Assembly: GCF_000243235.1 (NCBI RefSeq)
Contig: NZ_JH594606.1
Coordinates: forward strand, 1,841,448 to 1,905,447
Source: Gillisia limnaea DSM 15749
GTDB lineage: Bacteria; Bacteroidota; Bacteroidia; Flavobacteriales; Flavobacteriaceae
Direction: 5' to 3'
DNA: 64,000 nucleotides
Position 1 is the stretch's first letter. Each line of letters starts with the position of its first letter. Below the pieces are notes generated by a model, which ran no database searches, was not told the origin of the DNA, and saw only the letters and a program-made list of their open reading frames with translations. A program made the position numbers and the translations under genes. Positions 15,718 through 32,115 of this stretch are shown one piece after another.

Positions 15718-16917
15718 TTGAATTTTTCCCTCTACATCGCCAAACGGTATTTATTTACCAAAAGCAGCAATAATGCGATCAATATCATCACCATTATTGC
15801 CGCAGTCGGCGTTTTTGCGGGAGCCTTCTCTTTATTTATTGTGCTTTCCGGGTTCTCCGGATTGAAAGATTTCAGCTTAACCTTCTCCAACGAATTTGAC
15901 CCCGATCTTAAAGTTTTCCCCTCCAGCGGAAAAACTATCAGTATTTCTGAAGCTGAAAAACAAAACCTATATAAAATCGAGGGGATATCTGCTTCTTCTG
16001 AAGTTGTGGAAGAACGTGTTTTTCTGGATTACAGGTCAAAAAACCATACCGCATTTATAAAAGGTGTGGATGCTTATTACCGAAAAGTGAATAATATAGA
16101 CAGTTCCCTGGTTTACGGAAACTGGCTTACCGAAAGTGATTTTCAGGTAGTGGCAGGCAACGGGATTACCCGGCTGCTCTCCCTTAGTGCCTTCGATTAT
16201 ACCCATTTACTGGAAATTATGGTTCCCAGGCCGGGAAAAGGGCAGGTTAGCGTCCCAACCGATGCTTTCAATAAAGAAGGCGTCGTGGTTACCGGAATTT
16301 ACAGCGTGAATGAAGAATTGGACAGCAAATATATATTTGCCAACATAGATTTTGCGCGAAACTTGCTGGAATTGGAGGAAAATGAAGTTTCGGCTATAGA
16401 AATAAAACTGGCTCCGGGCGCCGATCCAGAAACAGTAACTTCAGAAATTAAAAAGATCCTCAGTCAGGATGTAAGCGTTAAGAACCGTGCCCAGCTTAAT
16501 GAAACGCTCTATAAAATGCTCAATACCGAAAATCTTGCGGTCTACCTTATTTTTACCCTCGTACTCATTATTGCACTTTTCAATGTGGTAGGATCTATCA
16601 TTATGGTGATTCTGGATAAAAGGGAAAATATTAGGACGCTTTATAGTCTTGGTGCTACTGAAAATGCCATTAAAAATATCTTTTTTATGCAGGGAGCGCT
16701 TATGACGATTGTGGGCGGATTTATAGGATTGCTTTTCGCCCTGATCCTGGTTTACCTGCAACTGCAGTTTGATCTTGTAATGATCACACCTTCCCTGGCA
16801 TATCCTGTTAAGATAAAAGCCGAAAATATTATTCTGGTTTTAGTAACTATTGGCATTTTAGGGATGGCAGCCTCCTATATTGCGGCCAGCAGAAGCAAAA
16901 AAGCGCTTCAGGCCTAA
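15718..16917 (+). CDS. FtsX/LolC-type ABC transporter permease
   Basis: 399 residues. N-terminal helix (about 20-45, AINIITIIAAVGVFAGAFSLF) then a large periplasmic domain, then three helices near residues 273-300, 322-348 and 370-390: the MacB/FtsX-core layout shared by the lipoprotein-release permeases LolC/LolE. The start codon is TTG (15718), one base after the rbfA stop; no ATG lies upstream in frame and the first residues (NFSLYIAKRYLFTKSS) are normal for the family. The ATPase partner is not adjacent. Its last 4 bp overlap the end of the convergent dusB gene. Confidence 0.88.
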   Translation: MNFSLYIAKRYLFTKSSNNAINIITIIAAVGVFAGAFSLFIVLSGFSGLKDFSLTFSNEFDPDLKVFPSSGKTISISEAEKQNLYKIEGISASSEVVEERVFLDYRSKNHTAFIKGVDAYYRKVNNIDSSLVYGNWLTESDFQVVAGNGITRLLSLSAFDYTHLLEIMVPRPGKGQVSVPTDAFNKEGVVVTGIYSVNEELDSKYIFANIDFARNLLELEENEVSAIEIKLAPGADPETVTSEIKKILSQDVSVKNRAQLNETLYKMLNTENLAVYLIFTLVLIIALFNVVGSIIMVILDKRENIRTLYSLGATENAIKNIFFMQGALMTIVGGFIGLLFALILVYLQLQFDLVMITPSLAYPVKIKAENIILVLVTIGILGMAASYIAASRSKKALQA

Positions 16918-17906
16918 ACGAATTCGAAGCCAGAGAATTCTCTTTCCACCTCATCAAAAGCTGCAAAAACATCTATAGAATGATCGCTGGTCACCATTTT
17001 TGTACGGAATTCCTTAAAATGCGGGATGCCTTTAAAATAGTTTGTATAATGTCTTCTGGTTTCAAAAACCCCTAATTTTTCGCCTTTCCAGTCTATAGCC
17101 ATTTGAAGATGCTTCCTAGCGGCCTGCACGCGTTCCTCTAATGTTGGAGGGGCAAGATTATTCCCTGTTGCAAAAAAATGTTTCACCTCTCTAAAAAACC
17201 AGGGATATCCAATACTTGCACGGCCTATCATAGCGCCGTCCAATCCGTATTTATCGCGCATTTCCATCGCTTTTTCAGGAGTGTCCACATCTCCGTTCCC
17301 AAAAATGGGAATATGCATCCTGGGGTTGTTCTTAACATCGGCAATAGGACCCCAGTCGGCAACACCTTTGTACATCTGGGCGCGGGTTCTACCGTGAATT
17401 GCGATGGATTTTGCTCCTGCATCCTGCAATCTTTCGGCAACCTCAACAATCCTTATGGAATCCTGATCCCAGCCTAAACGGGTTTTAATGGTGATTGGTA
17501 AATTGGTGTGCTTCACCATGGCTGCGGTTAGAGAAACCATCAAATCGATGTCTTTCAGGATCCCGGCACCGGCTCCCTTGGAAACTACCTTTTTTACCGG
17601 GCAGCCAAAATTGATGTCTATTATATCCGGATTGGATTTTTCAACTATTTCAACCGACTGGAGCATGGATTCCAGGTTGGCTCCAAAGATCTGGATTCCC
17701 ACCGGGCGTTCCTTTTCGTATATATCCAGCTTCATCCTGCTCTTGGCAGCATCGCGTATAAGCCCTTCCGAAGAGATAAATTCGGTATACACCACATCTG
17801 CTCCCTGTTCCTTGCACAATGCACGAAACGGTGGATCGCTCACATCTTCCATGGGTGCTAAAAGCAATGGAAATTCCCCTACATCTATATTACCTATTTT
17901 GGACAA
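16914..17906 (-). CDS. dusB: tRNA-dihydrouridine synthase
   Basis: 330 residues, an FMN-dependent TIM barrel that reduces uridine in tRNA D-loops. Motifs: LLLAPMEDVSDPPFRALC at the start, DINFGCPVKKVV with the catalytic Cys, ITIKTRLGWD, IHGRTRAQMYKG, IFGNGDVDTP and GLDGAMIGRASIGYPWFF. The pattern fits DusB best among the Dus types. The gene converges on the permease gene with a 4-bp overlap and has its own -7 element upstream (17926-17933). Confidence 0.95.
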   Translation of the reverse strand: MSKIGNIDVGEFPLLLAPMEDVSDPPFRALCKEQGADVVYTEFISSEGLIRDAAKSRMKLDIYEKERPVGIQIFGANLESMLQSVEIVEKSNPDIIDINFGCPVKKVVSKGAGAGILKDIDLMVSLTAAMVKHTNLPITIKTRLGWDQDSIRIVEVAERLQDAGAKSIAIHGRTRAQMYKGVADWGPIADVKNNPRMHIPIFGNGDVDTPEKAMEMRDKYGLDGAMIGRASIGYPWFFREVKHFFATGNNLAPPTLEERVQAARKHLQMAIDWKGEKLGVFETRRHYTNYFKGIPHFKEFRTKMVTSDHSIDVFAAFDEVEREFSGFEFV

Positions 17907-17925
17907 ATCAATAAAATTAAGTTTG

Positions 17926-17933
17926 CAAAATTA
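17926..17933 (-). promoter_or_regulatory. -7 element of dusB
   Basis: TAATTTTG on the minus strand matches TAnnTTTG and ends 19 nt before the dusB ATG. Confidence 0.5.
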
Positions 17934-18013
17934 CGAAAAAAAAAGAAAATCTCCCTAACCCCCCGAAGGTGGAATTTATGAAATTGCAATTTGAATGAAA
18001 TAGAATGCCAGAG

Positions 18014-18036
18014 TAAAAAAACTCCCCCTTCGGGGG
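18014..18036 (-). terminator. Rho-independent terminator of the receptor gene
   Basis: CCCCC (18024-18028) faces GGGGG (18032-18036); on the minus strand the hairpin is followed by AGTTTTTTTAC. A related GC-rich string (CCCCCCGAAGG) at 17951-17961 could pair with it over a longer range. It lies just after the stop of the minus-strand receptor gene. Confidence 0.75.
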
Positions 18037-18048
18037 CCGGGGGGCTTT

Positions 18049-20460
18049 TTAGATCCTGTCCCGTTCTGCAGCTTCTATCTGGCGCTGATTGTCACTTAGC
18101 CTGAAATTTCCAAAGTTGTATTTAAATCCAAACCGTACATAGCGCAATTCTTCCTGTGCGAAAAAGGAATTATCCTGATTAAGATATTGGGACGTCAATC
18201 GTGTATTGGTTGTATTCAGCATATCTTCAAAATTAAGGCTTACCTCTGCCCTGTTGTTCCAAAGGGTTTTTCTGAAACCGATAGAAAAAGTAGTCATAGG
18301 CTCCAGCTGATAGGAACCGGAAATAAAATCGGAAACATGCATCAAGAATAGGTTTCCTTCAAAAGTACCATCTTTAGAAAGCGTAAAAACATTATAAATA
18401 TAGGCCTGCACCCCATCTGTTTCGTTCGTGACTTCTGCGTTTCCGCTTTCAACTGCCAAAAAAGTATTTTCCGTGTGAAATAAGGAAGTAAATGCCTGGG
18501 CATACCACCAGCTTGTAATAGACCTTCCGTGAAAAACATCAAGCCCATAGGATTTGTTTTCCAGCAAATTCGTACTCACATTTCTTATAGTTAGATTCCT
18601 GTTATCCTGAAATGCAAGGGTTGTAGGGGTTATCCCGTCATCCTTATAGTAAAGATCAAAGAAATACTGGCCCTTTAGCGTATAATTTAAATTGTAATTG
18701 TTGCTGATCGCCGCTCTTAAATTGGGGTTTCCGGCATTGAAATTATTTTCATTCAGGAAATACCGGAAAGGATTTAAACTCTCATATTTAGGACGGGCAA
18801 TTCGTCTGGAATAATCCAAAGTAAACACATGATCTTCAGATATTTTATGCTGTAAATATGCTGTGGGGAACACTTCAAAATATTCCTGGGTATTGACTTC
18901 TCCAATAGAATTGGAGGTTCCTGTAATATCGGTATATTCCCCTCTAAGCCCTGCTTTAATGGCCCATTTATCCCAGTCCCTGGTGATACTGGCATAACCT
19001 GCATAAATAGCTTCATCATACAGGAAGTTATCAGAAAGCTCTCCAATAAGCTGGCGGTTGTTGCCCTGGGTATCAAAATAATCTATCCCACTTTCAGAAT
19101 TTATCACCGATGATTTTGCTCCCATCTCAAAAGTGGCGCTTCCTATTGGAGTTTGGTAATCCACCTGTGCCGTAAAAATATCGATTTCCTGGGCTGCATC
19201 GGTTAAAAAACTAATCCGGTTTATAACCGCGTCTTGTGGGGAAAAATAGGTGGAAAGCACATCCTGCATGCGCTCCTGGTTGAAATTGGTATAATGAGCT
19301 TCCGCTGAAATTTGAGCTCCCTCGGTTTTCAGGAGGTGCGTAAATTTTAAATCCAGCGCAATATTGTTCTCATCATTTTCGAGTCCGCTTCGGGTAACAA
19401 ATGAAGAATCCAGCTGAAACTGAGCACTCCGTATATCTGTTTCCACCACATTATCAAAAGTCTTGTTAGGTGATAACATCGCATTGGTAGAAAAACTCAG
19501 TGTATTCCGCTCATCTATGGCATAATCTATATTCGCATTGGCATTGTGCGCCTGGGAACGGGTAGTCCTGTTGAAGTCTGTATTCCAACGGGAAAATATA
19601 GCGCCATCCTCATTTATGAAATTGATATAACTGTCGTCATTTTTGAAATCTTTACGCGGACTGAAGCTGTAATTAGCAAAAACATTCAGCTTTTCACTTT
19701 TAAAATAATGGCTGGTCCCAAACTGGTATTTCGGGAAAATGGCCTGGGTATAGGTTCCGTTGATACTTCCTTTATAGCCTGGTGTAATATTGCTGCTGGT
19801 AACTATATTCAAAATGGCACCGCCCTGGGCTTCATATCGCGCCGGCGGATTCGTGATAACTTCAATAGATTTTATATTTGCTGCGGAATAACTTTCCAGT
19901 AGGGTTTGCAGCTCTGATGCAGATAAATGAACTTTCCTGTCATTGATATAAACAGCTACTATATTATTTCGCACCAATAACTGGTTTTGTGTCACAATTA
20001 CCCCGGGAGTTCTTTTTAAAATTTCCCATGAATTCCCCGAAGACAGCGTGGAATTTTCAACGTTGAAAATGAGTCGGTCTATCGTCTTTGTTACCGTTGG
20101 TTTTTTTGCATTGATAGTAATTTCTTTAAGAGCTCCTTCATCTTCCTTTAAAACTATAGGGTTAAGCGTACTGTTTCCGCTTACCGAGATCCGTTTTATA
20201 AAGTTTTCAAAACCAACAAAACTCACAATAAGTACATATTCTTTAGTTAAGATATTTTCAAAGAGATAATCTCCCTGCTCATCTGTAACGGCGCCTTTGT
20301 AAACAGTGGTAGAATCGGTTTCCATCAGGACTACATTTGCGTAAGCAACCCCTTCCTGATTGGGAAATAGTACAGAGCCTTTAACAGAATTCTGTGAAAA
20401 CGTTGAAAATGTAACAAGGGAAATAAGGCAACAAAGTGGGAGGAAATATAGGTGGTTCAT
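18049..20460 (-). CDS. TonB-dependent-receptor-like outer-membrane beta-barrel protein (OMP_b-brl_3)
   Basis: 803 residues. A signal peptide (about 1-22, ending FSQNS) is followed by a CarboxypepD_reg-like beta sandwich (about 25-110: KGSVLFPNQEGVAYANVVL, TDEQGDYLFENI), a plug-like domain (120-220: SGNSWEILKRTPGVIVTQN, SIEVITNPPARYEAQGGAIL) and a long beta-barrel to the C-terminus (RFGFKYNFGNFRLSDNQRQ). This is the 'outer membrane beta-barrel family' common in Bacteroidetes; it lacks a SusD partner and a clear TonB box, so its cargo is unknown. It is next to a GH3 gene on the same strand, 112 bp apart, with its own promoter-like element, so cotranscription is uncertain. Confidence 0.88.
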   Translation of the reverse strand: MNHLYFLPLCCLISLVTFSTFSQNSVKGSVLFPNQEGVAYANVVLMETDSTTVYKGAVTDEQGDYLFENILTKEYVLIVSFVGFENFIKRISVSGNSTLNPIVLKEDEGALKEITINAKKPTVTKTIDRLIFNVENSTLSSGNSWEILKRTPGVIVTQNQLLVRNNIVAVYINDRKVHLSASELQTLLESYSAANIKSIEVITNPPARYEAQGGAILNIVTSSNITPGYKGSINGTYTQAIFPKYQFGTSHYFKSEKLNVFANYSFSPRKDFKNDDSYINFINEDGAIFSRWNTDFNRTTRSQAHNANANIDYAIDERNTLSFSTNAMLSPNKTFDNVVETDIRSAQFQLDSSFVTRSGLENDENNIALDLKFTHLLKTEGAQISAEAHYTNFNQERMQDVLSTYFSPQDAVINRISFLTDAAQEIDIFTAQVDYQTPIGSATFEMGAKSSVINSESGIDYFDTQGNNRQLIGELSDNFLYDEAIYAGYASITRDWDKWAIKAGLRGEYTDITGTSNSIGEVNTQEYFEVFPTAYLQHKISEDHVFTLDYSRRIARPKYESLNPFRYFLNENNFNAGNPNLRAAISNNYNLNYTLKGQYFFDLYYKDDGITPTTLAFQDNRNLTIRNVSTNLLENKSYGLDVFHGRSITSWWYAQAFTSLFHTENTFLAVESGNAEVTNETDGVQAYIYNVFTLSKDGTFEGNLFLMHVSDFISGSYQLEPMTTFSIGFRKTLWNNRAEVSLNFEDMLNTTNTRLTSQYLNQDNSFFAQEELRYVRFGFKYNFGNFRLSDNQRQIEAAERDRI

Positions 20461-20495
20461 TAAAATAAAATTGGAAATTTGGAGTATTTATTAAT

Positions 20496-20503
20496 CAAAT
20501 ATA
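20496..20503 (-). promoter_or_regulatory. -7 element of the receptor gene
   Basis: TATATTTG on the minus strand, 35 nt before the receptor ATG, in a very AT-rich spacer. Confidence 0.5.
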
Positions 20504-20572
20504 GTATTTCTTAAATATATATTAAAATTTGTTATTAATATCTCATTTGTATTTGATTCCCGGGCGTTGTTG

Positions 20573-22396
20573 CTACCGTATTAGGCACCAGGGAACAGGC
20601 TGATTATAAAAATGTTCCTGTAACCATGCCTGCATCTTAAAACAGGGAGTATTCGCATTAAAACTTCCACCCAACCATAAACCATCCCCTTCCCTAAATT
20701 TATTAGCTACACTCACAGGAAGTTTCCCGGAAACCCTGACTTTTCCAAAAATAGCCCGTGCAGCTAAATTTTCGGCCTCCGGAGTATCCTGATACGTGAG
20801 CAGCAATCCCGAAGCTGCTTCTATATTATTTATATCCTTCATCACATAGGGATTCTTAAAAAGAGCGATCACAGAATTTTTCATTTCAGCCAATTCTGAA
20901 ATAAATTTCTGAAGGGAATCAGACATTTTAAGTTTATTATAAGGACGTATTTCTTCATCGTGAATCCCTGTAATTACTATATTGAAAGACTGGAGCTTAT
21001 CTTTTAATGTCTTCAGTTCTTCTTCGGAAGGTTGGTTTGAAACATTGAAATTGGTTGTTTTTCCATACAATCCCATGCTGTTCTGAAAAACAGTAGTGTT
21101 TTCCTTTCCAACAGAAATTACCGCGATTTGCAAAGTGTCTAGTCCCTTAACCGGAATTATTTTTTCGGTATTCTTTAGTAATGTTAGGGAAGCTGCGGCA
21201 AGGTTCCGGTTCAATAATTTTGCTTTGGAAGTATTGAGATCTTCGGTTAAATTCTTAAGAGAGATCGGCACATAATTATCCAGTCCTGACCATTGTTTTA
21301 GGGCAAGAATTTTCCGGCATCTCCGGTCGATCTCTTCCTGACTTATTAACCCCATCTTCACGGCCTGGCTTATTTCGGTGATGGCACGTGGGACATCTTC
21401 TGTAAATTCCAGAAGGTCATTTCCTGCAAGAATGGCGTCTTTATCCACAATTCCGGGGAGATTGTCTTTGGTTACCCCTTTCATATTCATGGCATCTGTA
21501 ACAATAAGGCCTTCAAAACCAAGTTCATCCTTTAATAATTCTGTGATAATCTTAGCGGACAAAGTAGATGGAACCCCGGAAGGATCTAAAGCCGGGATAT
21601 CCAGATGCGCAACCATAACCCCTCCTATTCCTGCTTTTATAAGTTGCCTGAAAGGATAAAGCTCCAGGGTATCCAGCCTTTCCCTGGAATGAAGAATTTG
21701 TGGAAGTGCCAGGTGGGAATCTGTATCGGTATCTCCATGCCCGGGGAAATGTTTGGCGGTGGGAAGCACTCCGTGGTCCTGTAAACCCCGCATATAAGCA
21801 ATCCCCTTTTTAGCGACTTTATACTTGTTTTCACCAAAAGAGCGGTAGTTAATCACGGGATTTTCGGCATTGTTATTCACATCCACAACAGGGGCAAAAT
21901 TTAAATGAAGCCCTACGCGTTTTATTTGCCGGGCGACCTCTGCGCCCATTTTATAAATAATGGTATTGTTTTGAACTGCACCTAAAGCCATTTGAAAAGG
22001 AAAACTAATGGTGCTGTCCAGCCGCATTCCCAGGCCCCACTCGGCATCGATAGCGCCCAATAACGGCACTTTTGAGGCAGCCTGGTATTCATTCATCAGT
22101 TTTGCCTGCCTTACAGGTCCTCCCTGAAAAAATATAACTCCGCCTATTTTTTGTTCATTTATAAGCTTTAAGATTTCCTGTTTATGATCTTCGCCGCGAT
22201 TGGAAAAGGCAGCTACCATGATCAACTGTGCAATGCGCTCATCTGGAGACAAAGTTTCCATAATGGAATCTACCCAGGTGCTGTTTTGATAGTGTAGAAA
22301 TTCCGGGGTTTTTAAAGGTTTTTCCTGCGCATACAGTATGCTGCCGAATAGAAGCATTTTTGATATAAAACAAAGAGAAAATAATCTCATCATCAT
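20573..22396 (-). CDS. GH3 beta-N-acetylhexosaminidase (NagZ-like), short form
   Basis: 607 residues with a signal peptide (about 1-23, LLFGSILYAQ). Releases GlcNAc from muropeptides or chitin-like oligomers. The NagZ active-site loop is present, KHFPGHGDTDTDSH at 215-228 with the catalytic His, and the nucleophile Asp301 is in IVTDAMNMKG. Residues of about 390-570 form the second, alpha/beta sandwich domain. Many Bacteroidetes homologues are about 970 residues and carry a C-terminal beta-lactamase-type domain after this point; here the protein ends soon after the GH3 part (KFREGDGLWLGG...), and nothing of that domain remains downstream. The signal peptide puts it in the periplasm or outside. 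Divergent from the nagB-like gene. Confidence 0.9.
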   Translation of the reverse strand: MMMRLFSLCFISKMLLFGSILYAQEKPLKTPEFLHYQNSTWVDSIMETLSPDERIAQLIMVAAFSNRGEDHKQEILKLINEQKIGGVIFFQGGPVRQAKLMNEYQAASKVPLLGAIDAEWGLGMRLDSTISFPFQMALGAVQNNTIIYKMGAEVARQIKRVGLHLNFAPVVDVNNNAENPVINYRSFGENKYKVAKKGIAYMRGLQDHGVLPTAKHFPGHGDTDTDSHLALPQILHSRERLDTLELYPFRQLIKAGIGGVMVAHLDIPALDPSGVPSTLSAKIITELLKDELGFEGLIVTDAMNMKGVTKDNLPGIVDKDAILAGNDLLEFTEDVPRAITEISQAVKMGLISQEEIDRRCRKILALKQWSGLDNYVPISLKNLTEDLNTSKAKLLNRNLAAASLTLLKNTEKIIPVKGLDTLQIAVISVGKENTTVFQNSMGLYGKTTNFNVSNQPSEEELKTLKDKLQSFNIVITGIHDEEIRPYNKLKMSDSLQKFISELAEMKNSVIALFKNPYVMKDINNIEAASGLLLTYQDTPEAENLAARAIFGKVRVSGKLPVSVANKFREGDGLWLGGSFNANTPCFKMQAWLQEHFYNQPVPWCLIR

Positions 22397-22519
22397 AAAC
22401 TGATTTTTTCGTCGATAGCTTGCTGAAGCAGAAAGGTCTTTCCTGATAATTAAGGCTGAAAATTAAGGCTTTTTTTCTACTTTTAAGAGTTAGGGAATAA
22501 TAACCAAAAAATAACCGGA

Positions 22520-24439
22520 ATGGCAAGATTAAATTTACTTGAAGAAACAAGATATGAGAAACTGCCTGTAACGGTATACCCAGATCAATACGAAGCTTCA
22601 AAAAAAGTTGCCAATAAAATCAAGGAAATCATACTCCAAAAGCAATCTATAGGAAAAAATGCTGTCCTGGGCCTTGCCACAGGTGCCACGCCGGTAGATG
22701 TTTATGCAGAGCTGGTGAAAATGCATAAAGAAGATGGCCTCAGTTTCAAGAATGTCATCACCTTTAACCTCGATGAATATTATCCCATGCAACCAGATTC
22801 AAAGCAAAGTTATGTGGCATTTATGGATGAAAATCTCTTCAGCCATATAGATATTAAAAGGGAAAATATCCATATTCCTGATGGGACACTGCCAAAAGAA
22901 GATATCGCCAATTATTGTCTGGAATACGAAAATAAAATAGAGGAAATGGGAGGAATAGATCTCCAAATCCTTGGGATAGGAAGAACGGGACATATAGGCT
23001 TTAATGAGCCCGGATCGGCCCCAAATTCTGGTACCCGGCTGGTAACCCTGGACGATCTTACCAGAAGAGATGCTTCAAGGGATTTTGGCGGAAAGGAAAA
23101 CGTTCCTACCAAAGCGATCACCATGGGAATTGGTACAATTTTTAAAGCTCGGGAAATCATTTTGATGGCCTGGAGCAGGAAAAAGGCATCAATTATAAAA
23201 AAAGCTGTAGAAGGAGAAATTTCAGGGAAAGTACCGGCTACGTACTTACAACTTTCAGATAACGTGAAATTTGTGCTGGATAGAGAAGCTGCATCAGAAT
23301 TGACCAGGTTTAATACTCCCTGGCTGGTAAAAGATTGTATCTGGGATAAAAATCTAATTAAAAAAGCGGTTATCTGGCTATCTTCTGAAATTGAAAAACC
23401 CATTCTTAAATTAACAGATGAGGATTATAACAGCCATGGAATGGCTCAATTAGCTACTGAACAGGGCCCTGCATACGATATAAATATTGATGTATTCAAC
23501 CAGTTACAGCATAGTATAACGGGATGGCCCGGCGGAAAACCCAATGCCGATGACAGCCAGCGTCCGGAAAGAGCCGAGCCTGCGCATAAAAGATCCCTTA
23601 TTTTCTCTCCTCACCCGGATGATGATGTCATTTCCATGGGAGGTACATTTATCCGGTTGGTAGATCAGGGACATGAGGTGCATGTAGCCTATCAAACCTC
23701 CGGAAATACCGCAGTATGGGACACCGATGTGCTGCGTTATATTGAATTTACCATAGATTTCAATAAAAGTATAGGTCAGGATACCCAAAAACTTAAGGAT
23801 ATTTACTCCAGAATGAGAGACTTCCTGAAAACTAAAAAGCCAAATGAGACCGACCTTCCGGAAATAAGGGATGTAAAGGCCTTCATAAGAAAATCTGAAG
23901 CCTATGCAGGAGCACGGTATGCAGGTTTACAGGATACAAATATCCATTTTATGGCCCTCCCCTTCTATGAAACCGGAAAATCTGAAAAAAATCCCGTCAA
24001 AGCGATCGATGTGGAACTAACTATGGAATTACTTCAGGAGATCAAGCCCCAACAGGTATTTGCTGCAGGTGATTTTGATGATCCGCATGGCACTCATATC
24101 GTATGTTTTAGAATAGTCCTTGAAGCTATGAAACGTCTTCGCGAGACCGAGGAATGGACAAAAGATTGCTGGTTATGGATGTACCGCGGAGCCTGGGATG
24201 AGTTTGAGACACACGATATCGAAATGGCCGTTCCACTCTCTCCTATCGAGGTTCAAAGGAAAAGAAATGCTATTTTTCAACACCAGTCACAAAAGGATCA
24301 TCCTGTTTTCCCGGGAGATGACCAGCGTGAATTCTGGATGAGAGCCCAGGAAAGAAACAGGGAAACCGCAGAGAATTACCATAAATTGGGTCTGGCAAAT
24401 TATGAAGCTATGGAAGCTTTTGTGAGATGGAAATTTTAA
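22520..24439 (+). CDS. NagB-like glucosamine-6-phosphate deaminase fused to a PIG-L deacetylase domain
   Basis: 639 residues in two parts. Residues 15-285 are NagB-like: NLDEYYP with Asp85, and GIGRTGHIGFNEPGS with His158 and Glu163, aligning with E. coli NagB Asp72, His143 and Glu148. The position of E. coli Asp141 is Thr156 here, as I recall for this long subfamily. Residues 355-639 are a PIG-L/LmbE deacetylase: SPHPDDDVISMGG at 363 on (zinc ligands His365 and Asp368) and DPHGTH near 522. One chain could thus deacetylate GlcNAc-6P and deaminate GlcN-6P to fructose-6P, a plausible but unproven idea. No signal peptide: cytosolic. Divergent from the GH3 gene and 280 bp before the amidase gene. 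Confidence 0.9.
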   Translation: MARLNLLEETRYEKLPVTVYPDQYEASKKVANKIKEIILQKQSIGKNAVLGLATGATPVDVYAELVKMHKEDGLSFKNVITFNLDEYYPMQPDSKQSYVAFMDENLFSHIDIKRENIHIPDGTLPKEDIANYCLEYENKIEEMGGIDLQILGIGRTGHIGFNEPGSAPNSGTRLVTLDDLTRRDASRDFGGKENVPTKAITMGIGTIFKAREIILMAWSRKKASIIKKAVEGEISGKVPATYLQLSDNVKFVLDREAASELTRFNTPWLVKDCIWDKNLIKKAVIWLSSEIEKPILKLTDEDYNSHGMAQLATEQGPAYDINIDVFNQLQHSITGWPGGKPNADDSQRPERAEPAHKRSLIFSPHPDDDVISMGGTFIRLVDQGHEVHVAYQTSGNTAVWDTDVLRYIEFTIDFNKSIGQDTQKLKDIYSRMRDFLKTKKPNETDLPEIRDVKAFIRKSEAYAGARYAGLQDTNIHFMALPFYETGKSEKNPVKAIDVELTMELLQEIKPQQVFAAGDFDDPHGTHIVCFRIVLEAMKRLRETEEWTKDCWLWMYRGAWDEFETHDIEMAVPLSPIEVQRKRNAIFQHQSQKDHPVFPGDDQREFWMRAQERNRETAENYHKLGLANYEAMEAFVRWKF

Positions 24440-24719
24440 ATAACCTTCACACCGGATACTACTGAATTTTTGATCTTCATTTCAGCGGAAAAATCTGCTT
24501 ATCATATACGTTGCATGCAAAATTCATGAATAGGAGGAGGGACCAAAGTTTTAGGTAAATATCCTACCGAAGAAGGAAATAGCAACCCGTGTAATTATAA
24601 AAATGAATCAGAAATTGTTCTGAAATTATTCGGGAAGCTGCCTTCCGTGAGGTTCTCTATGCCTCTTTTCTTCTATATATCATTCCAAATCAACGATATT
24701 TGCATTTAAAACATAGACT

Positions 24720-25643
24720 ATGAACATGTTGTTAAGAAGCACCTATTTAATATTTGTAGCCTCCCTGGTGATCTCCTGTGCTACCAACCCTTATGCTGCC
24801 ACCAATAAGATCCATAAAAAACAATCTAAGTTGCTCACAGATCAATTGAATACTTTCCCTACAGAACAGCCGGAAGGCGAAGCTTTATTGCCTTACGGTG
24901 AGCATTGGGCAGGAACTACAAATTTCAATTTGCGCAAGCCAAATTTTGTTATCCTTCATCACACCGCGCAGGATTCTTTAGCTCAAACCCTTACCACTTT
25001 TACCAAAGTTCCTACACAGGTGAGTGCACATTACGTTATTGGAAAGAACGGTGAGATCTATCAAATGCTTAATGATTATTACCGTGCCTGGCATGCCGGG
25101 GCTGGAAAATGGGGAAATACCACCGACCTTAATTCTGCCTCTTTGGGTATTGAACTCGATAACAACGGATTTGAACCTTTTTCTCCACTACAAATCAACA
25201 GCCTGATAAAACTCCTAAAGGTCTTAAAAGAACGGTATAATATTCCGGCAGCCAATTTTATAGGCCATTCAGACATTGCCCCGGGACGAAAAGTAGATCC
25301 TAACCCCAAGTTCCCCTGGAAATTACTCGCAGAAGAAGGTTTTGGCCTTTGGTATGACGAGATTGAGGTGCCGGTGATCGTACTTGATGGAAGGCCCAAA
25401 ACCGGAAACCTCAACATTCCTGTTGTAACTGAGGGGAATATTGTTCCAGAGCCTACTGAAAGTGACCTGGCCACTACAAGCGTTGATCCTAAAATGGCAC
25501 TGCGCATCATTGGCTATGACACCAGCAATATGGAAGCGGCCATTAAAGCTTTCAAGCTGCACTTTATCCAGTCTGAAGTCAATGGCGAACTTAACGCAAT
25601 GGACCTTTTGATCCTGGAAAATTTGTATAAGAAGTATATGTAA
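24720..25643 (+). CDS. N-acetylmuramoyl-L-alanine amidase (AmiD/AmpD-like, Amidase_2) lipoprotein
   Basis: 307 residues. A lipoprotein signal ends at Cys20 (LVISC). The Amidase_2 zinc site is seen: FVILHHTAQDS (first His), FIGHSDIAPGRKVDPNPKFP (second His and the Asp/Cys-like position) and SLGIELDNNG (Glu/Asp region). A C-terminal tail of about 70 residues (DPKMALRIIGYDTSN...LLILENLYKKYM) resembles the peptidoglycan-binding helical domain of AmiD. It cleaves the MurNAc-L-Ala bond in muropeptides, in the outer membrane or periplasm. Same strand as the nagB-like gene but 280 bp away, so probably its own unit. Confidence 0.92.
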   Translation: MNMLLRSTYLIFVASLVISCATNPYAATNKIHKKQSKLLTDQLNTFPTEQPEGEALLPYGEHWAGTTNFNLRKPNFVILHHTAQDSLAQTLTTFTKVPTQVSAHYVIGKNGEIYQMLNDYYRAWHAGAGKWGNTTDLNSASLGIELDNNGFEPFSPLQINSLIKLLKVLKERYNIPAANFIGHSDIAPGRKVDPNPKFPWKLLAEEGFGLWYDEIEVPVIVLDGRPKTGNLNIPVVTEGNIVPEPTESDLATTSVDPKMALRIIGYDTSNMEAAIKAFKLHFIQSEVNGELNAMDLLILENLYKKYM

Positions 25644-25873
25644 ATCTTTGGGGCCTGTTACTTACTTTGCGTGAAATGAAATGCACTTAAATCGCTGATT
25701 ATCTAAGGTTCACAAGGCTTTGTCACTCTTTTTGCCCTTGTGCCTTCGTGGCCGTTTTCGCAGGTAGCTTAAACTCTTTTCGCCTTCACTTTTTTCTTTT
25801 CTGCTTTACATGAAAAAGAAAACTCCTAAATTGTTAGTACACCTGTTTACTGCAGGCAGTTTCACAAATGCTG

Positions 25874-27073
25874 TTAACCTTTCTTACCAAACAACTCTGA
25901 ATTTTCCAGCAGGATGATGTTGGGATCATCTTCAGAGACCAGTCTTTTGGTGCGCAGATATCTGTTGTAGTTGAATTCGTCAAAATCTCTGGCAGTACTA
26001 TCTATAGAACTTACACGCACCCTTCCGCTGGAATGGATAAATTGATTGTTGCCAACCCACATGCCCACGTGTACCACCTTTTCTGAAGTAGTATCTGTGG
26101 CAGGCCTTCCGAAGAAAAGAAGATCTCCTGGGATAAGGTTCTCAAAGTTTCGTGTGGAATCTACCAAAGTACCCGTATGCACCTGCTGCGAAGCATCCCG
26201 GGGGATGATCATCCCGTTGAGGAAAAAGATGGTTTTGGTATACCCGCTGCAGTCTACCCCTTTTGCTGAGGTACCTCCCCACAAATAGGGAAGCCCCATC
26301 AATGCTCTTGAAGTTTTTATAAGGTTCTCTGCGGAAGGATCCAGTTGGGCAATCCATTCATCATACAATTGTGCGGCTTCCTTTTGAATATAGGCTGTCA
26401 CACCGTCTGGGTATTTGACTTTGTAAAAGTTCTCCTGTTCTTCCTGCAGTTCTAAAATGCTTCCTGCCACAAGATCTGTAACCACTGGGGAAGTTGTATT
26501 GGCTTCTTCATAGGCAAACCCAAAAGGCTGTTTAAAGACTACTTTAGAGATGTTCTTCCAGTTCTGGAATTCCTCATCGCTAAGCGTTTCCAGGCCACCA
26601 CCATCTACCCAGGACAGGTATTTATCTGGGGTTTGCACCAAAAACCATTCATTTTCTTCCTTTAAAACTTTGAGCGGAGTTCCTAAAGTAGCCTGGGTGG
26701 CCAGTTCTGCGGAATGTGCAGGATTGGACCTAAGATTGGCTACCGAAATTTTTACCAGGGCATTAGAAGCATTTTCCATCATTTTTCCCGGAAGAAGCTC
26801 AATACTGTCTATGAACACAATATTTTTCTGTTCCAGCCTGGAACGAAGGCTTTGCACAGCTTCCGGAAGGTTGGATTCCCCATTGAGGATCAACCCTCCC
26901 TCATTTCCCATGGCTTCCACCTCAAAACGGGCCACCCTTTTATCTGGCACAAATTCTCCCGAGACCTCAGCAATAACATCCCGGGCAGTTATTAATTTTT
27001 TGTTTTCTTCGGAAGAATTACAACCAAATACCAATACCGCGGTAAGTAAGGTCAAAGCAAGTTTTTTGAACAT
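25874..27073 (-). CDS. SH3/NlpC-P60 cell-wall endopeptidase lipoprotein (YkfC-like)
   Basis: 399 residues. Lipoprotein signal to Cys18 (LVFGC). Residues of about 110-235 hold two SH3-like repeats (VANLRSNPAHSAELATQATL and FAYEEANTTSPVVTDL). The NlpC/P60 catalytic domain follows: Cys275 in GVDCSGYT, His335 in VVHVGMWVG and His347 in FIHSSG. This is the arrangement of gamma-D-Glu-L-diamino-acid endopeptidases such as B. cereus YkfC, which cut after L-Ala-D-Glu. It is 4 bp downstream of the dipeptide epimerase gene, which acts on exactly that product; the two must be co-transcribed. Confidence 0.93.
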   Translation of the reverse strand: MFKKLALTLLTAVLVFGCNSSEENKKLITARDVIAEVSGEFVPDKRVARFEVEAMGNEGGLILNGESNLPEAVQSLRSRLEQKNIVFIDSIELLPGKMMENASNALVKISVANLRSNPAHSAELATQATLGTPLKVLKEENEWFLVQTPDKYLSWVDGGGLETLSDEEFQNWKNISKVVFKQPFGFAYEEANTTSPVVTDLVAGSILELQEEQENFYKVKYPDGVTAYIQKEAAQLYDEWIAQLDPSAENLIKTSRALMGLPYLWGGTSAKGVDCSGYTKTIFFLNGMIIPRDASQQVHTGTLVDSTRNFENLIPGDLLFFGRPATDTTSEKVVHVGMWVGNNQFIHSSGRVRVSSIDSTARDFDEFNYNRYLRTKRLVSEDDPNIILLENSELFGKKG

Positions 27074-27077
27074 AAAT

Positions 27078-28115
27078 CTAAGTTTTTATTGTCCTGTTTA
27101 TCAATTGTACACCGGTGCCGTTCCTATCGGGAAAAACAACTTTTCCATCTAAGATCTTCACACCTTCAGCTATATCATTTTTTAAGAGTAAAGCCCCATC
27201 CATATCTGCATAATCCAGCAAAGGTAGTAAATGCGCAATTGCTGAGATTCCTACCGTAGACTCTGCCATACATCCCACCATAACTTTCATTCCAAGTTCC
27301 TTTGCCTCTGCAATCATCCTTCGGGCCGGTGTGAGGCCGCCACATTTGGTAAGTTTTATATTCACTCCATGGAAATAACCCGCACATCTTGCAATGTCTT
27401 GTTCTGCTATGCAGCTTTCATCTGCAATTACCGGTAAAGAAGAATATTTATATACCTTTTTCATTCCTTCCCAATCCTCTTTCGCTAAAGGTTGTTCTAA
27501 GAATTCTACGTTGAGATCTTTGAGGATCTCAGCATTTTTTATCGCAACATCTGCGGTCCAGGCCGCGTTGGCATCTACTCTAAACACTACGTTGGTGTGC
27601 TTTCTCAATTCTTTAATGATGTCTACATCACCCGCTGTACCCAATTTGATCTTGTAGAGCGGCCAGGGAAAATCCTTCATTTTCTGTACCATTTTCTCAA
27701 CAGTATCAATACCAATAGTATAATTTGATAGTGGAAGCTGTTTCAAATCCAGTCCCCATAATTTGTAAAGCGGAAGGTCTTTCCTTTTCCCGTAAAGATC
27801 GTGCATGGCAATGTCCAGGGCGCATTGTGCAAAAGAATTTTCCTTTAAGTAGGGTTGGGTAATTTCCCAAAGTTCTTCCGGCGTTTTATGAATATTATCC
27901 GCAATTAAAGGTTCTATCTCCTTTATCGCTGCGATCATACCTTCTACGCTAACACCATAGTAGGATATTGCTGCAGCCTCCCCATAGCCTGTATAGGCTC
28001 CATCGGTTAAAGCAACGATGAGGGTTTTTTGAAAATTCCTGGAACCATGGCTTATGGTAAAAGTTTCTTTCAGTTCAAGATCAAATGTGAAAAAATTCAG
28101 CATTGGTTTCATCAA
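27078..28115 (-). CDS. L-Ala-D/L-Glu dipeptide epimerase
   Basis: 345 residues of the enolase superfamily. Converts L-Ala-D-Glu from murein to L-Ala-L-Glu for ordinary catabolism. Active-site parts: YKIKLG with the first catalytic Lys, FRVDANAAW, EFLEQP and VIADES giving the Mg2+ ligands Asp-Glu-Asp, IKLTKCGG with the second Lys, and ADMDG near the C-terminus, the DxD motif that marks dipeptide epimerases. Met5 is the likeliest true start, Met1 and Met2 being alternatives. It is 3 bp downstream of the GHL10 gene and 4 bp upstream of the NlpC/P60 gene. Confidence 0.93.
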   Translation of the reverse strand: MMKPMLNFFTFDLELKETFTISHGSRNFQKTLIVALTDGAYTGYGEAAAISYYGVSVEGMIAAIKEIEPLIADNIHKTPEELWEITQPYLKENSFAQCALDIAMHDLYGKRKDLPLYKLWGLDLKQLPLSNYTIGIDTVEKMVQKMKDFPWPLYKIKLGTAGDVDIIKELRKHTNVVFRVDANAAWTADVAIKNAEILKDLNVEFLEQPLAKEDWEGMKKVYKYSSLPVIADESCIAEQDIARCAGYFHGVNIKLTKCGGLTPARRMIAEAKELGMKVMVGCMAESTVGISAIAHLLPLLDYADMDGALLLKNDIAEGVKILDGKVVFPDRNGTGVQLINRTIKT

Positions 28116-28118
28116 TTA

Positions 28119-29747
28119 TTATCCTCCAACCGAAACTTCGATAAAATTACTTTCATTTCCTGTTCTGTCCACGGCAGTAACTCCAATATCCGTAAGATGA
28201 GACCCTTTTTCATTTTTATTCAGAAGGTATGATAATTCGAATGAATTTTGAGTGCGGTTTAAAATTTCATAATTCCAAACCCCTTTATATTTATAATACA
28301 CTACCCATTTAAAAACCTCATCTATACCCGAATGATCCCAGTTTATTTCGACCTTATCCTGTAAAACTTTTACCTCCACATTAGGAGCTGCTGGCAAAAC
28401 AGCGTTCATCCAAAGACTTGCAGGAACCAGGGCCTCTTTTTGATAAGGACCTTCCAGCAGTGCTTTGGAAACATTTGGATATTTAATAAGCGGACCTATG
28501 CTCCAGTGTACACTTCCTTTGCTTTCCGGTAACATTCCACGGGTGAGCATAATTTGGTTGATAGTTTCATCTACATTAAGCGCATCGCCACCAAAATCTA
28601 TATTTATTCCCGGCCATAAATGGCGGTTTTGCAGATTTTCGCTTTCCCACCATCCCAAAAGCACCGGAAAACTTTGCTTGGTTTGGTTAATTTTCCAATA
28701 TAGCTGCGGGGAATAATAATCTATCCAACCTTCGTTTAACCATAGCCTGGCATCGGCATATAATTCGGTATACTGATCCATTCCTGCAATTGATTTTGGA
28801 AACCCAGGGCGATAAATCCCAAAAGGACTAATCCCAAATTTCACTTGTGGTTTTTCAGCCTTTATCTCATTGTAGATTCGTTGCACGAAGGTATTTACGC
28901 CATCCCTTCTCCAGTCTGCTTTTGATAGTTTTCCACCTGATTTTTGATAGGCTGCAAAACTTGCTGCATCTGGAAAATCTGCTCCTTTATTATAAGAAGC
29001 ATACGGATAAAAATAATCATCAAAGTGGATTCCATCAATATCATAACGCTTCACGATATCCATTACTACCGCAGCGGTATGGTCCTGAGTTCCTTTTTTT
29101 GATGGATCCAGCCAGTACATGCCATTTTTTAACCCTACCACAAGATCTGAATGCGTTTTAACTATTGAGGCATCTGTGATCTTTCCTCCTGTAGAATGGT
29201 GTGCTCTGTAAGGATTTAACCACACATGCAATTCCATTCCCCTGTCATGAGCCGCTTCTATCCAAAAATGTAAAGGATCGTAAAATGGTTCCGGAGCTTT
29301 CCCCTGTTCCCCTGTTAGAAAAAAGGACCAGGATTCAAGCGAACTTTTATAAAGGGCATCTGCCTGTGGCCTCGCCTGAAAAATCACTGCATTATAATTA
29401 TGTTTCTTTAAAAAATCAAGTAAAACAATCGCTTCCCTTTGTTGTTCGCTGGTTGATAAACCCGATTTGCTTGGCCAGTTGATATTGGCTACCGTAGCAA
29501 TCCAGGCTGCACGAAATTCCCGCATTACAAAAGGAGCATTGTTTACGATTTGGACAGGAGTCACCGCTGTTTCCTCCCCGGGAATCTCGTTTATGATCAC
29601 GGATTCCGGGAGTTCTTCCTGTTTTACCGGAGGAATTTCAGAGACCTGGGGTTCTGAAGGTTTTGCAGGAATATTTTTTTTTGATTTACACCCGGCCATT
29701 ACAATCATAAATACCAATGCAATAAGGATAAGTTTTCTATTCAACAT
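28119..29747 (-). CDS. glycosyl-hydrolase-like family 10 (GHL10/DUF187) lipoprotein
   Basis: 542 residues. Lipoprotein signal ending at Cys20 (MIVMAGC). Residues of about 75-390 are the GHL10 TIM barrel: REFRAAWIATVANINWPS, YNAVIFQARPQADALYKS, MELHVWLNPYRAHH, DIDGIHFDDYFYPYA. A C-terminal fibronectin-like part follows (about 440-540: VEINWDHSGIDEVFKWVVYY). The family is thought to act on amino-sugar polymers and is often found beside murein-recycling genes, as here. First gene of a tight three-gene run with the epimerase and endopeptidase. Confidence 0.9.
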   Translation of the reverse strand: MLNRKLILIALVFMIVMAGCKSKKNIPAKPSEPQVSEIPPVKQEELPESVIINEIPGEETAVTPVQIVNNAPFVMREFRAAWIATVANINWPSKSGLSTSEQQREAIVLLDFLKKHNYNAVIFQARPQADALYKSSLESWSFFLTGEQGKAPEPFYDPLHFWIEAAHDRGMELHVWLNPYRAHHSTGGKITDASIVKTHSDLVVGLKNGMYWLDPSKKGTQDHTAAVVMDIVKRYDIDGIHFDDYFYPYASYNKGADFPDAASFAAYQKSGGKLSKADWRRDGVNTFVQRIYNEIKAEKPQVKFGISPFGIYRPGFPKSIAGMDQYTELYADARLWLNEGWIDYYSPQLYWKINQTKQSFPVLLGWWESENLQNRHLWPGINIDFGGDALNVDETINQIMLTRGMLPESKGSVHWSIGPLIKYPNVSKALLEGPYQKEALVPASLWMNAVLPAAPNVEVKVLQDKVEINWDHSGIDEVFKWVVYYKYKGVWNYEILNRTQNSFELSYLLNKNEKGSHLTDIGVTAVDRTGNESNFIEVSVGG

Positions 29748-29823
29748 AGGAATTTATTTGTATAAAATATTTAAGGCGAAGTTATTTTTATTTGTTCAAA
29801 TTTAAAACTAAAAGAACCGTATT

Positions 29824-30642
29824 TTAATCCCTGCTTTTCTTTAATACCTCCCGAACATTTTTATGCTCTTCAAGCAGGTTTTGCGCGATAGTTTCGTCTA
29901 CATTCAGTTCCTCCATGATCATTCGAACGCCGCGTTCTATAAGCTTTTTATTGCTTAACTGCATATCTACCATCTTGTTTCCCTTTACCCTTCCCAGTTT
30001 TATCATAACCGAAGTAGAGATCATATTTAGCACCAGTTTCTGAGCTGTTCCCGATTTCATCCTGGTACTTCCGGTAACAAATTCCGGCCCTACTTCAATT
30101 TCTATAGGATATTGGACCTCTTTTGCCAGAGGGGAATTTTTATTGTTGGTTATACATGCTGTTATTAGTCCTTTTTCCCTGGCTTTCTTTACTCCTCCTA
30201 TAACATAAGGCGTAGTTCCTGAAGCTGCAATGCCAATGACCAAATCATTTTTATTGATTTTGAATTTCTGAAGATCTTCCCATGCACCGTTCGAGTTGTC
30301 TTCGGCATTTTCTACCGCTTTTCTAAGGGCAACATCGCCCCCGGCAATAAGGCCAATAACGACATCATCACTAACCCCAAAAGTAGGAGGACATTCTGAA
30401 GCATCCAAAACCCCAAGCCTGCCGCTTGTTCCGGCTCCAATATAAAATAACCGTCCACCCTTTGCTATTTGCTGCACAATACTATCAACGAGAATCATGA
30501 TTTTGGGAATTTCAGCCTCGATGACCTCTGGAACGGTTTTATCCTCCCTGTTCATATTTCGAAGCAATTCTTCAGTGCTCATCAATTCAAGATCCTGGTA
30601 CCTGGAGCTTTTTTCAGTAGTGGGTTTATTTTGATCACTCAT
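29824..30642 (-). CDS. murQ: N-acetylmuramic acid 6-phosphate etherase
   Basis: 272 residues, SIS-domain enzyme that splits the D-lactyl ether of MurNAc-6P to give GlcNAc-6P and lactate. The whole signature is present: TTEKSSRYQDLELMST, FYIGAGTSGRLGVLDASECPPT with Glu83, and ENAED with Glu114, the two catalytic glutamates at the same numbers as in E. coli MurQ. MKSGTAQKLVLNM is also kept. No signal peptide. Its product is the substrate expected for the nagB/PIG-L fusion. It lies 76 bp upstream of the GHL10 gene on the same strand. Confidence 0.96.
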   Translation of the reverse strand: MSDQNKPTTEKSSRYQDLELMSTEELLRNMNREDKTVPEVIEAEIPKIMILVDSIVQQIAKGGRLFYIGAGTSGRLGVLDASECPPTFGVSDDVVIGLIAGGDVALRKAVENAEDNSNGAWEDLQKFKINKNDLVIGIAASGTTPYVIGGVKKAREKGLITACITNNKNSPLAKEVQYPIEIEVGPEFVTGSTRMKSGTAQKLVLNMISTSVMIKLGRVKGNKMVDMQLSNKKLIERGVRMIMEELNVDETIAQNLLEEHKNVREVLKKSRD

Positions 30643-30819
30643 TATTTACAATATAAATAGTATTGTTTTTCAGGGATAAAACCACTGAAAAAGATTGTTG
30701 CTTTCCTTTCCGGGAAAATTTCCATGATCCGGATGGAAATTTGCGCAAATTGATTCTATGATTCTAACGTTCACAGAGCTTTTTGTATTGCAATTCCATT
30801 GCCGACTTATCCAGGAAAA

Positions 30820-32115
30820 TTATAGGTTTCTCCCTATTTTATGACCTTTTGAGGCAAAAAACAGAATAAAGGCATAACAAGGGATCACGATCCAGTATGC
30901 CTGTTGTGGATCAAACATATCGGCTAAACGTCCATAAAATAAAGGTAAAATTGCACCTCCGGCAATTGCCATGATCAAAAATGAAGAGCCTATCTTGGTA
31001 AATCTCCCCAACCCAGCGATCGCCATTGGCCAGATTGCCGGCCATACCATCGCATTTGCAAGGCCCAGTAAGGAAATCAATAAAACGGAAATAAACCCAT
31101 TGGTATAAATGGCCCCCAAACCTAAAATTATTCCCAGGACGGCCGAGACCTGCAAGGCGCGTTCCTGTGCAATGTATTTTGGGATTGTAAAGATCCCGAT
31201 TATATAGCCTATAATCATTGCGATTAGTGTGTAGGAGGTAAATGCTTTTGCATCCATAAGCGGGATTCCCTGCTCGGCTCCATAGCTTATCACAGTATCT
31301 CCGGCGATGACCTCTACCCCAACATATAAAAACATGGCAAGGGTTCCCAACAACAAATGCGGGAATTGAAAAATATTCTTTTTATTGATATTGGATTTTG
31401 CCACAACTTCATCTTCAGAATCTGTATCTACTTCGGGTAATGGAGAAAAGTAGATCCATACCGCAAGAATGATAAGGACGCCCATCATAATAAGATACGG
31501 GACCACTACCCTTTCCGAAAGTTCATTCAACACAAGTGCCTTTTCAGCAACATCCATCAATTCCAGTTCTTCAATCAGGTTATCTGTATTTTTAAATACA
31601 ATTGCTCCAAGCACTAATGGCGCAAGGGCTCCCGCTACTTTATTACATATTCCCATAATACTTATGCGTTTTGCAGCACTTTCTATAGGACCTAAAATCG
31701 TGATGTATGGATTTGCAGCAGTTTGCAATACCGCAAGGCCGGTTCCCAGAACAAATAATCCCAGCAAAAAGATCTCATAGGTTCGCGTATAAGCAGCCGG
31801 CACAAAAATAAGTGCACCCACGGCCATGACCAACAATCCTAAAGACATTCCTTTTTTAAACCCGGTAACCTTTAAAACCCAGGCCGAAGGCAGGGCCATG
31901 ACCAGGTAAGAAATGTAGAATGCTGTTACCACGAAGTAAGACTGAAAGTTGTTGAGTTCGCAGGCGATCTTAAGATAAGGTACAAGGACTGAATTTAGCC
32001 AGGTTACGAATCCGAAAATAAAGAACAGGGCTCCAATAATAATGATGGAACGATTGGTTCCCTGCCGACTTGTATTTCGGGGAGTTGCAGTACTGGCTAA
32101 AGATTGATCTTTCAT
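30820..32115 (-). CDS. FGHS-type sugar MFS permease, probably for GlcNAc/MurNAc
   Basis: 431 residues with 12 hydrophobic segments in the FucP/NagP pattern: FIFGFVTWLNSVLVPYLK in the first helix, GTGLAVLQTAANPYITILGP in the fourth, LGLANAMVWPAIWPMAI in the tenth. Members import fucose, glucose, galactose or N-acetylglucosamine with H+ or Na+. Its place 178 bp upstream of murQ on the same strand argues for an amino sugar as substrate; this is inference. An acidic cytosolic loop (EVDTDSEDEVV) separates the halves. Confidence 0.88.
   Translation of the reverse strand: MKDQSLASTATPRNTSRQGTNRSIIIIGALFFIFGFVTWLNSVLVPYLKIACELNNFQSYFVVTAFYISYLVMALPSAWVLKVTGFKKGMSLGLLVMAVGALIFVPAAYTRTYEIFLLGLFVLGTGLAVLQTAANPYITILGPIESAAKRISIMGICNKVAGALAPLVLGAIVFKNTDNLIEELELMDVAEKALVLNELSERVVVPYLIMMGVLIILAVWIYFSPLPEVDTDSEDEVVAKSNINKKNIFQFPHLLLGTLAMFLYVGVEVIAGDTVISYGAEQGIPLMDAKAFTSYTLIAMIIGYIIGIFTIPKYIAQERALQVSAVLGIILGLGAIYTNGFISVLLISLLGLANAMVWPAIWPMAIAGLGRFTKIGSSFLIMAIAGGAILPLFYGRLADMFDPQQAYWIVIPCYAFILFFASKGHKIGRNL

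Follow-up and report, generated by a model that had tools for sequence, protein, structure and literature searches.

A probable peptidoglycan salvage locus of Gillisia limnaea, encoding a NagB-PIG-L fusion and predicted to operate without AmpG

The 64,000-nucleotide stretch of Gillisia limnaea DSM 15749 analyzed here (contig NZ_JH594606.1, positions 1,841,448 to 1,905,447; hereafter, the window) harbors at positions 20573 to 32115 a gene cluster whose products are predicted to participate in the salvage of peptidoglycan. The original prediction, made from the DNA sequence, had placed eight enzyme and transporter families together in this interval, and all eight were recovered: each open reading frame (ORF) in the ORF list is open and matched the family named when scanned with Pfam and curated profiles. 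The features are as follows, where GH denotes glycoside hydrolase, MurNAc N-acetylmuramic acid, and MFS major facilitator superfamily.

20573..22396, minus strand: GH3 NagZ-type beta-N-acetylglucosaminidase, 607 amino acids (aa), predicted to be exported, lacking the beta-lactamase-like domain that its orthologs carry at the C terminus
22520..24439, plus strand: NagB and PIG-L fusion, 639 aa (NF002557), no export signal seen
24720..25643, plus strand: AmiD/AmpDh2-type N-acetylmuramoyl-L-alanine amidase (Amidase_2), predicted lipoprotein
25874..27073, minus strand: SH3b-NlpC/P60 endopeptidase (YkfC-type), predicted lipoprotein
27078..28112, minus strand: L-Ala-D/L-Glu epimerase-type enzyme of the enolase superfamily (MR_MLE), with dipeptide and N-acetyl-Glu both candidate substrates
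28119..29747, minus strand: GHL10 (Cwp19-type) predicted glycan-cleaving lipoprotein (GHL10 domain, Cwp19 match)
29824..30642, minus strand: MurQ, MurNAc-6-phosphate etherase (above the TIGR00274 cut-off)
30706..30816, minus strand: gene fossil of a GH20 beta-hexosaminidase, 37 residues with 54% identity to residues 380 to 416 of the GH20 of locus L007
30820..32115, minus strand: GluP/NagP-type MFS sugar permease (above the TIGR01272 cut-off)
18049..20460, minus strand: outer-membrane beta-barrel protein (CarboxypepD_reg and OMP_b-brl_3), adjoining GH3

The four export signals that had been proposed were likewise found, as judged by eye: GH3 begins with a signal peptide, and lipobox cysteines occur in AmiD (VISC), NlpC/P60 (VFGC), and GHL10 (MAGC). 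Many orthologs of these four proteins have a comparable N terminus; in others, the listed ORF begins upstream of the likely start or the reading frame is interrupted. The genes fall into at least three strand blocks (the outer-membrane protein and GH3 on the minus strand, NagB-PIG-L and AmiD on the plus strand, and NlpC/P60, epimerase, GHL10, MurQ, and MFS on the minus strand), and the cluster is therefore not a single operon. Within the last block, the successive gaps measure 4, 6, 76, and 177 bases (with the epimerase starting at the ATG at 28112). A scan of the locus with a Bacteroidota-type promoter consensus returned no convincing intergenic promoter.

The GHL10 domain scored 205.4 bits (cut-off 27.9), and the nearest solved structure by sequence was Clostridioides difficile Cwp19, with which the protein aligned at 239 bits across 355 residues; DigH is also a GHL10 protein. 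Cwp19 is reported to be a lytic transglycosylase that yields anhydromuropeptides as well as reducing-end products (PMC6016235). The window GHL10 protein is best explained by homology to Cwp19, and anhydro products of this type fit the presence of AnmK in the genome (see below). A role in salvage is further supported by the context of GHL10 in two Planctomycetota loci, where it is accompanied by an AmpG-like permease (188 and 165 bits; cut-off 350), a GH3, a DgcN-like protein (below cut-off), an epimerase, and a beta-lactamase/DD-carboxypeptidase-type protein, such that GHL10 proteins are pointed to as salvage enzymes in two phyla. MurQ scored 324.5 against TIGR00274 (cut-off 302), with Glu83 and Glu114 kept in all 13 aligned sequences, while the MFS permease scored 324.4 against the gluP/NagP-type model TIGR01272 (cut-off 202.6). 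Here and below, alignments include the window protein and cover seven of the eight families, with a minimum length set for each; the MFS permease was left out.

The peptide-side enzymes also retain their motifs. In AmiD (Amidase_2, PF01510, 119.9 bits against a cut-off of 26), whose nearest solved structures are AmpDh2/AmiD, residues His80, His183, and Asp193 are kept in 29 of 29 aligned proteins, as are Cys275, His335, and His347 of NlpC/P60 in 39 of 39; the nearest solved structures to the latter are listed as “dipeptidyl-peptidase VI” (3npf/3pvq). Acidic residues shortly after a lipobox cysteine can direct lipoproteins to the cell surface; the window NlpC/P60 protein has such residues, as do several of its Gillisia-type orthologs, and they possibly act as a surface-export signal. 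The K-x-K/D/E/D/K motif of the epimerase is conserved in all 85 aligned sequences, its nearest solved structure being 3iji, which is listed as a muconate cycloisomerase but is probably a Bacteroides dipeptide epimerase. A DgcN-like (DUF1611) protein accompanies the epimerase in 15 planctomycete loci (L033, L044, L046, L047, L048, L050, L051, L053, L055, L057, L059, L064, L065, L066, and L067; family membership was checked in L046 and L053), and the planctomycete epimerase may act on N-acetyl-Glu. No such neighbor was seen in any Bacteroidota locus or in the planctomycete locus L056, which begins 213 bases before the epimerase.

The window GH3 matches PF00933 (269.7 bits) and contains the NagZ motif KHFPGHGxxxxDSH, the motifs KH-PGHG-DSH and TDA-NM being kept in 23 of 23 aligned sequences. 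Its nearest solved structures by sequence are the N-acetylglucosaminidase 6k5j, followed by 3sql and YbbD (3bmx), to which it aligns across residues 43 to 580. Once orthologs shorter than 550 aa (truncated at the end of a locus or disrupted in frame) had been excluded, 20 of 22 measured 979 to 1,059 aa, and the remaining two (749 and 802 aa) run past the end of their locus. The C-terminal part of the GH3 of L007 (Salinimicrobium xinjiangense), a PF00144 beta-lactamase-like domain, is matched by all 22 orthologs and not by the 607-aa window protein, whose homology to the L007 GH3 stops at position 20666. This GH3-PF00144 fusion is represented by L007:17104-20043 and its orthologs. A full-length GH3 paralog with 44% identity is encoded elsewhere in the genome, at C2:163143. 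The GH20 fossil, which lies between the MFS and MurQ genes at the site of the intact GH20 gene of L007, aligned with the L007 GH20 at 46.6 bits, compared with 19.6 bits for the best of 200 shuffles. Judging from these alignments, the window carries two visible losses, that of the GH20 gene and that of the GH3 beta-lactamase-like domain.

The NagB-PIG-L fusion was recognized by NF002557 with 1054.6 bits (cut-off 384; residues 5 to 639). Most positions of the NagB and PIG-L motifs are kept in the 27 aligned fusions, all of which share an unaltered HPDD motif and DPHGTH stretch in the PIG-L half; the nearest solved relatives of the PIG-L half are diacetylchitobiose deacetylases (weak matches, E of approximately 7e-5). 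In light of this motif invariance and these deacetylase-like structures, a fused deacetylase of N-acetylglucosamine (GlcNAc)-6-P appears plausible. The genome itself lacks a NagA match above the cut-off of 225.65 bits, the best being partial at 30.9 bits, and encodes a second NagB-PIG-L copy. Among 294 genomes of the order with a completeness of at least 95%, NagA (scored on at most six candidates per genome) exceeded the cut-off in 16, four more having near-complete matches below it at 199 to 224 bits, while the fusion was above its cut-off in 83, of which 63, including that of G. limnaea, were without NagA. Many flavobacteria with the fusion and without a recognizable NagA would thus require another GlcNAc-6-P deacetylase, the obvious candidate being the PIG-L half of the fusion. 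It is tentatively proposed, as a possibility that we regard with some doubt, that the protein is bifunctional, its PIG-L half deacetylating GlcNAc-6-P and its NagB half deaminating GlcN-6-P, and that it stands in for NagA across much of the Flavobacteriales, here completing a route that bypasses AmpG by cutting peptidoglycan to sugars and dipeptide before import. Replacement of NagA is countered by the finding that all 20 genomes with a NagA-like protein also carry the fusion (co-occurrence being counted without phylogenetic correction). In three of the genomes (G063, G184, and G269), the two genes are adjacent, which argues against full redundancy, and the PIG-L half may be doing something else.

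The possibility of a dead deaminase, raised by a Thr in the NagB half at the position of Asp141 of Escherichia coli NagB, was rejected because the NagB structure 2bkv has an Asn there and all 27 aligned fusions have a Thr. An AlphaFold model of the fusion (mean predicted local distance difference test score, 72.2; predicted template modeling score, 0.54) was too uncertain for domain geometry. A search of titles and abstract openings turned up no paper addressing what the fusion does; in a study of chitin use by Flavobacterium johnsoniae, NagB could not be expressed and its deletion was without effect, and a NagA was predicted in that organism (PMC5127042).

Beyond the window, the genome (3.97 Mb, two contigs) encodes two ROK proteins, a homolog of NamZ (the YbbC of Bacillus subtilis), and a paralogous sodium symporter (56%). 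The original prediction had a sugar kinase missing, which holds for the locus; the look-up that it had suggested located AnmK at G000:C2:1389728 (522.9 bits; equivalog cut-off 436) and a MurK/NagK-type (BadF-type) kinase at C2:288277, and true absence of a kinase from the organism was rejected on account of these two and the ROK proteins. The best alignments of the BadF-type kinase are to PG1100 (1zbs) and Tannerella forsythia MurK (8oqw and 8ow9), then to 1zxo and K1058 (8oqk and 8ow7). The structural report identifies 8ow9 as MurK with MurNAc and 8ow7 as K1058, and ascribes to MurK Ser133-Pro134-Leu135 the space for the lactyl group (PMC10465942). At these positions the kinase of G. limnaea has Asn-Ser-Leu in a HMMER alignment, a bulky Glu or His being absent. 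AmpG, sought with the single model TIGR00901, was not found in the genome (best partial match, 20.8 bits; cut-off 350), this model being positive in 5 of 14 control genomes, including Bacteroides ihuae. A second amino-sugar locus at G000:C2:2412000-2435106 (L106 onward) comprises a ROK kinase, a NagC-like regulator, PIG-L/LmbE-type proteins (one family-checked), and SusC/SusD-like genes; the second NagB-PIG-L copy lies just beyond it.

A crude estimate put the chance that the seven other genes would all fall within 10 kb of MurQ at approximately 1e-16. It assumes single copies, whereas the genome has four matches of the GH3 type and two copies of NagB-PIG-L, and recurrence in relatives is therefore the better argument. 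Of 15 other genomes of the genus, 12 have a strong epimerase match, and GHL10, epimerase, and NlpC/P60 occur together in all 12 corresponding loci (10 fetched, plus L003 and L005, which were equated with genomes G014 and G006, respectively, on the basis of matching contig coordinates). In several of these, a sodium:solute symporter gene separates GHL10 from the epimerase (in L101, along with one further ORF). Loci of Gillisia, Salinimicrobium, and Christiangramia variously add SusC/SusD, this symporter, a NagC-like ROK regulator, a NamZ-type protein (in L004 by Pfam and in L097 by similarity), GH20, a long GH3, and a membrane protein that has no Pfam match and is presumably NagX. In L007, a ROK kinase gene adjoins the MFS gene. 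The outer-membrane protein gene beside GH3 recurs in L007, L098, L100, L102, and L103. Full and compact forms occur within one genus: L003, L005, L097, L099, and L101 carry SusC/SusD-like genes, L098, L100, and L105 (a short contig) are compact, lying between Dus/outer-membrane protein and LepA genes, and L096, L102, L103, and L104 have mixed or truncated layouts. By gene content, the window corresponds to the compact form plus AmiD and NagB-PIG-L. The SusC/SusD proteins of relatives had no match in the window at an E value of 1e-3, and their lack in the compact form need not represent a loss.

Across a wider set of 80 loci, many of them short or distant, the genes near the epimerase (phmmer, E of at most 1e-10) were NlpC/P60 in 29, AmiD in 24, NagB-PIG-L in 22, GH3 in 22, with one more recognized from its C-terminal part, GHL10 in 9, and MurQ in 7. 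Pontibacter lies outside the Flavobacteriaceae, and its 20 loci hold NlpC/P60 (19), AmiD (18), GH3 (15), and NagB-PIG-L (14), all four being present in 13; the gene association hence spans two families. In Pontibacter L014:7779-13434, an S13 DD-carboxypeptidase-type protein, a BioF-like enzyme, and a DUF819 membrane protein are encoded around the epimerase, between AmiD and NlpC/P60.

From the genes, motifs, export signals, synteny, and genome inventory observed directly, it is proposed that this is probably a peptidoglycan salvage locus combining extracytoplasmic cleavage, AmpG-free uptake of sugars, and processing by MurQ and NagB-PIG-L; substrates, order of steps, localization, and the sugar carried by the permease are inferred. 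Outside the cytoplasm, the GHL10 lipoprotein would cut glycan strands and probably produce 1,6-anhydroMurNAc ends, AmiD would remove stem peptides, NlpC/P60 would trim these to L-Ala-D-Glu, and the exported GH3 would split GlcNAc from (anhydro)MurNAc. The MFS permease would then import the amino sugars without recourse to AmpG, and AnmK and the MurK/NagK-type kinase, encoded elsewhere, would generate MurNAc-6-P and GlcNAc-6-P, MurQ converting the former to the latter. NagB-PIG-L would take GlcNAc-6-P to fructose-6-P, with the PIG-L half perhaps serving as the deacetylase, and the epimerase would convert the imported dipeptide. Of the original prediction, muropeptide salvage with breakdown outside the cytoplasm is upheld as the best reading, as are the gene assignments, while for the dipeptide import that it invoked no importer was identified.

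Several observations weigh against this proposal. Scores fell below the more specific models for GH3 (NagZ equivalog NF003740, 137; cut-off 207), AmiD (AmpD NF008758, 102.4; cut-off 143), the permease (N-acetylglucosamine transporter NagP NF046060, 414; cut-off 625), and the epimerase (L-Ala-D/L-Glu epimerase NF011708, 149; cut-off 343), the last scoring higher, yet still below cut-off, on the N-acetyl-D-Glu racemase DgcA (NF042940, 222; cut-off 400). The closest match of the BadF-type kinase, 1zbs, is uncharacterized, the genes lie on both strands, no dipeptide importer was identified, MurQ is uncommon among the 80 loci of the wider set (present in 7), and three of the 15 other genomes of the genus (completeness, 77 to 82%) are without a strong epimerase match. 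Moreover, the window GH3, minus its C-terminal domain, could be decaying. That the locus as a whole is decaying and no longer specifies a working pathway, as the GH20 fossil and the shortening of GH3 to 607 aa might suggest, is considered very unlikely, since none of the eight ORFs is interrupted, the seven families that were aligned keep their active-site motifs, and compact versions without SusC/SusD in L098, L100, and L105 indicate that other members of the genus share this layout.

It is also unlikely that the cluster is a general locus for the utilization of GlcNAc from chitin or glycoprotein, with acquired peptidoglycan genes and sugars derived mainly from other polymers. The GH20 of L007 and its fossil here, the GluP/NagP-type permease, the NagC-like ROK regulator of relatives, and NagB would all suit such a function, but chitin breakdown offers no evident role for MurQ, the amidase, NlpC/P60, the epimerase, or GHL10, and the window kept its peptidoglycan genes yet lost GH20. 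A narrower version of the salvage proposal, with which it is compatible, is that the locus recycles only the turnover products of the cell's own wall rather than serving in feeding; this is a real possibility, if short of an expectation, as the SusC/SusD proteins of relatives are unmatched in the window and no importer of large fragments is left alongside. However, an OMP_b-brl_3 protein adjoins GH3, uptake may be served by other TonB systems, SusC/SusD-like genes are present in at least 5 of the 12 loci from the genus, and the acidic residues following the NlpC/P60 lipoprotein cysteine may, by the rule given above, signal surface export. Peptidoglycan salvage remains our preferred interpretation, and the locus illustrates a possible flavobacterial route for murein salvage without AmpG.

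Comparison with known systems reveals both precedent and difference. Judged by the features defining peptidoglycan polysaccharide utilization loci of Bacteroidota, the window contains MurQ together with muropeptide-cleaving enzymes but lacks a SusC/SusD pair. A Urechidicola symbiont of Idas mussels (Flavobacteriaceae) harbors a closely similar set of genes, the majority of which are assigned to murein metabolism; it shares with the window murQ, nagB, an L-Ala-D/L-Glu epimerase, an ampD-type amidase, a GH3, and a glycoside hydrolase listed as family 10 (PMC10199937). Two SusCD pairs, AmpG, DacA, BioF, GH18, and GH171 are listed for the symbiont cluster, none being among the ten window proteins scanned at 16914 to 32115, whereas the NlpC/P60 enzyme of the window is unlisted there (PMC10199937). 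The nine-gene cluster of T. forsythia (Tanf_08345-08385), which includes MurT, MurK, MurQ, and AmpG (PMC7670621), resembles the window in placing MurQ together with a sugar transporter, and a MurK-family kinase is also encoded in the G. limnaea genome; MurT has been called an MFS protein (PMC5790795). It differs in that its kinase lies inside the cluster, AmpG is present, and AnmK is not predicted, whereas in G. limnaea the kinase lies elsewhere, AmpG was not found, and AnmK is present. The B. subtilis cluster murQ-murR-murP-amiE-nagZ-ybbC likewise combines MurQ with NagZ and an amidase acting outside the cell (PMC5061867); the window proteins scanned include no phosphotransferase system or MurR and, instead, an MFS permease, with separate kinases and a NamZ homolog elsewhere. 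Compared with Cwp19, a surface autolysin of C. difficile (PMC6016235), and DigH, a division enzyme (PMC12288456), the window GHL10 protein is a predicted lipoprotein in a salvage locus. The locus is thus mostly a known kind of system, whose own features are its compact, AmpG-free layout and the NagA gap that the NagB-PIG-L fusion may fill.

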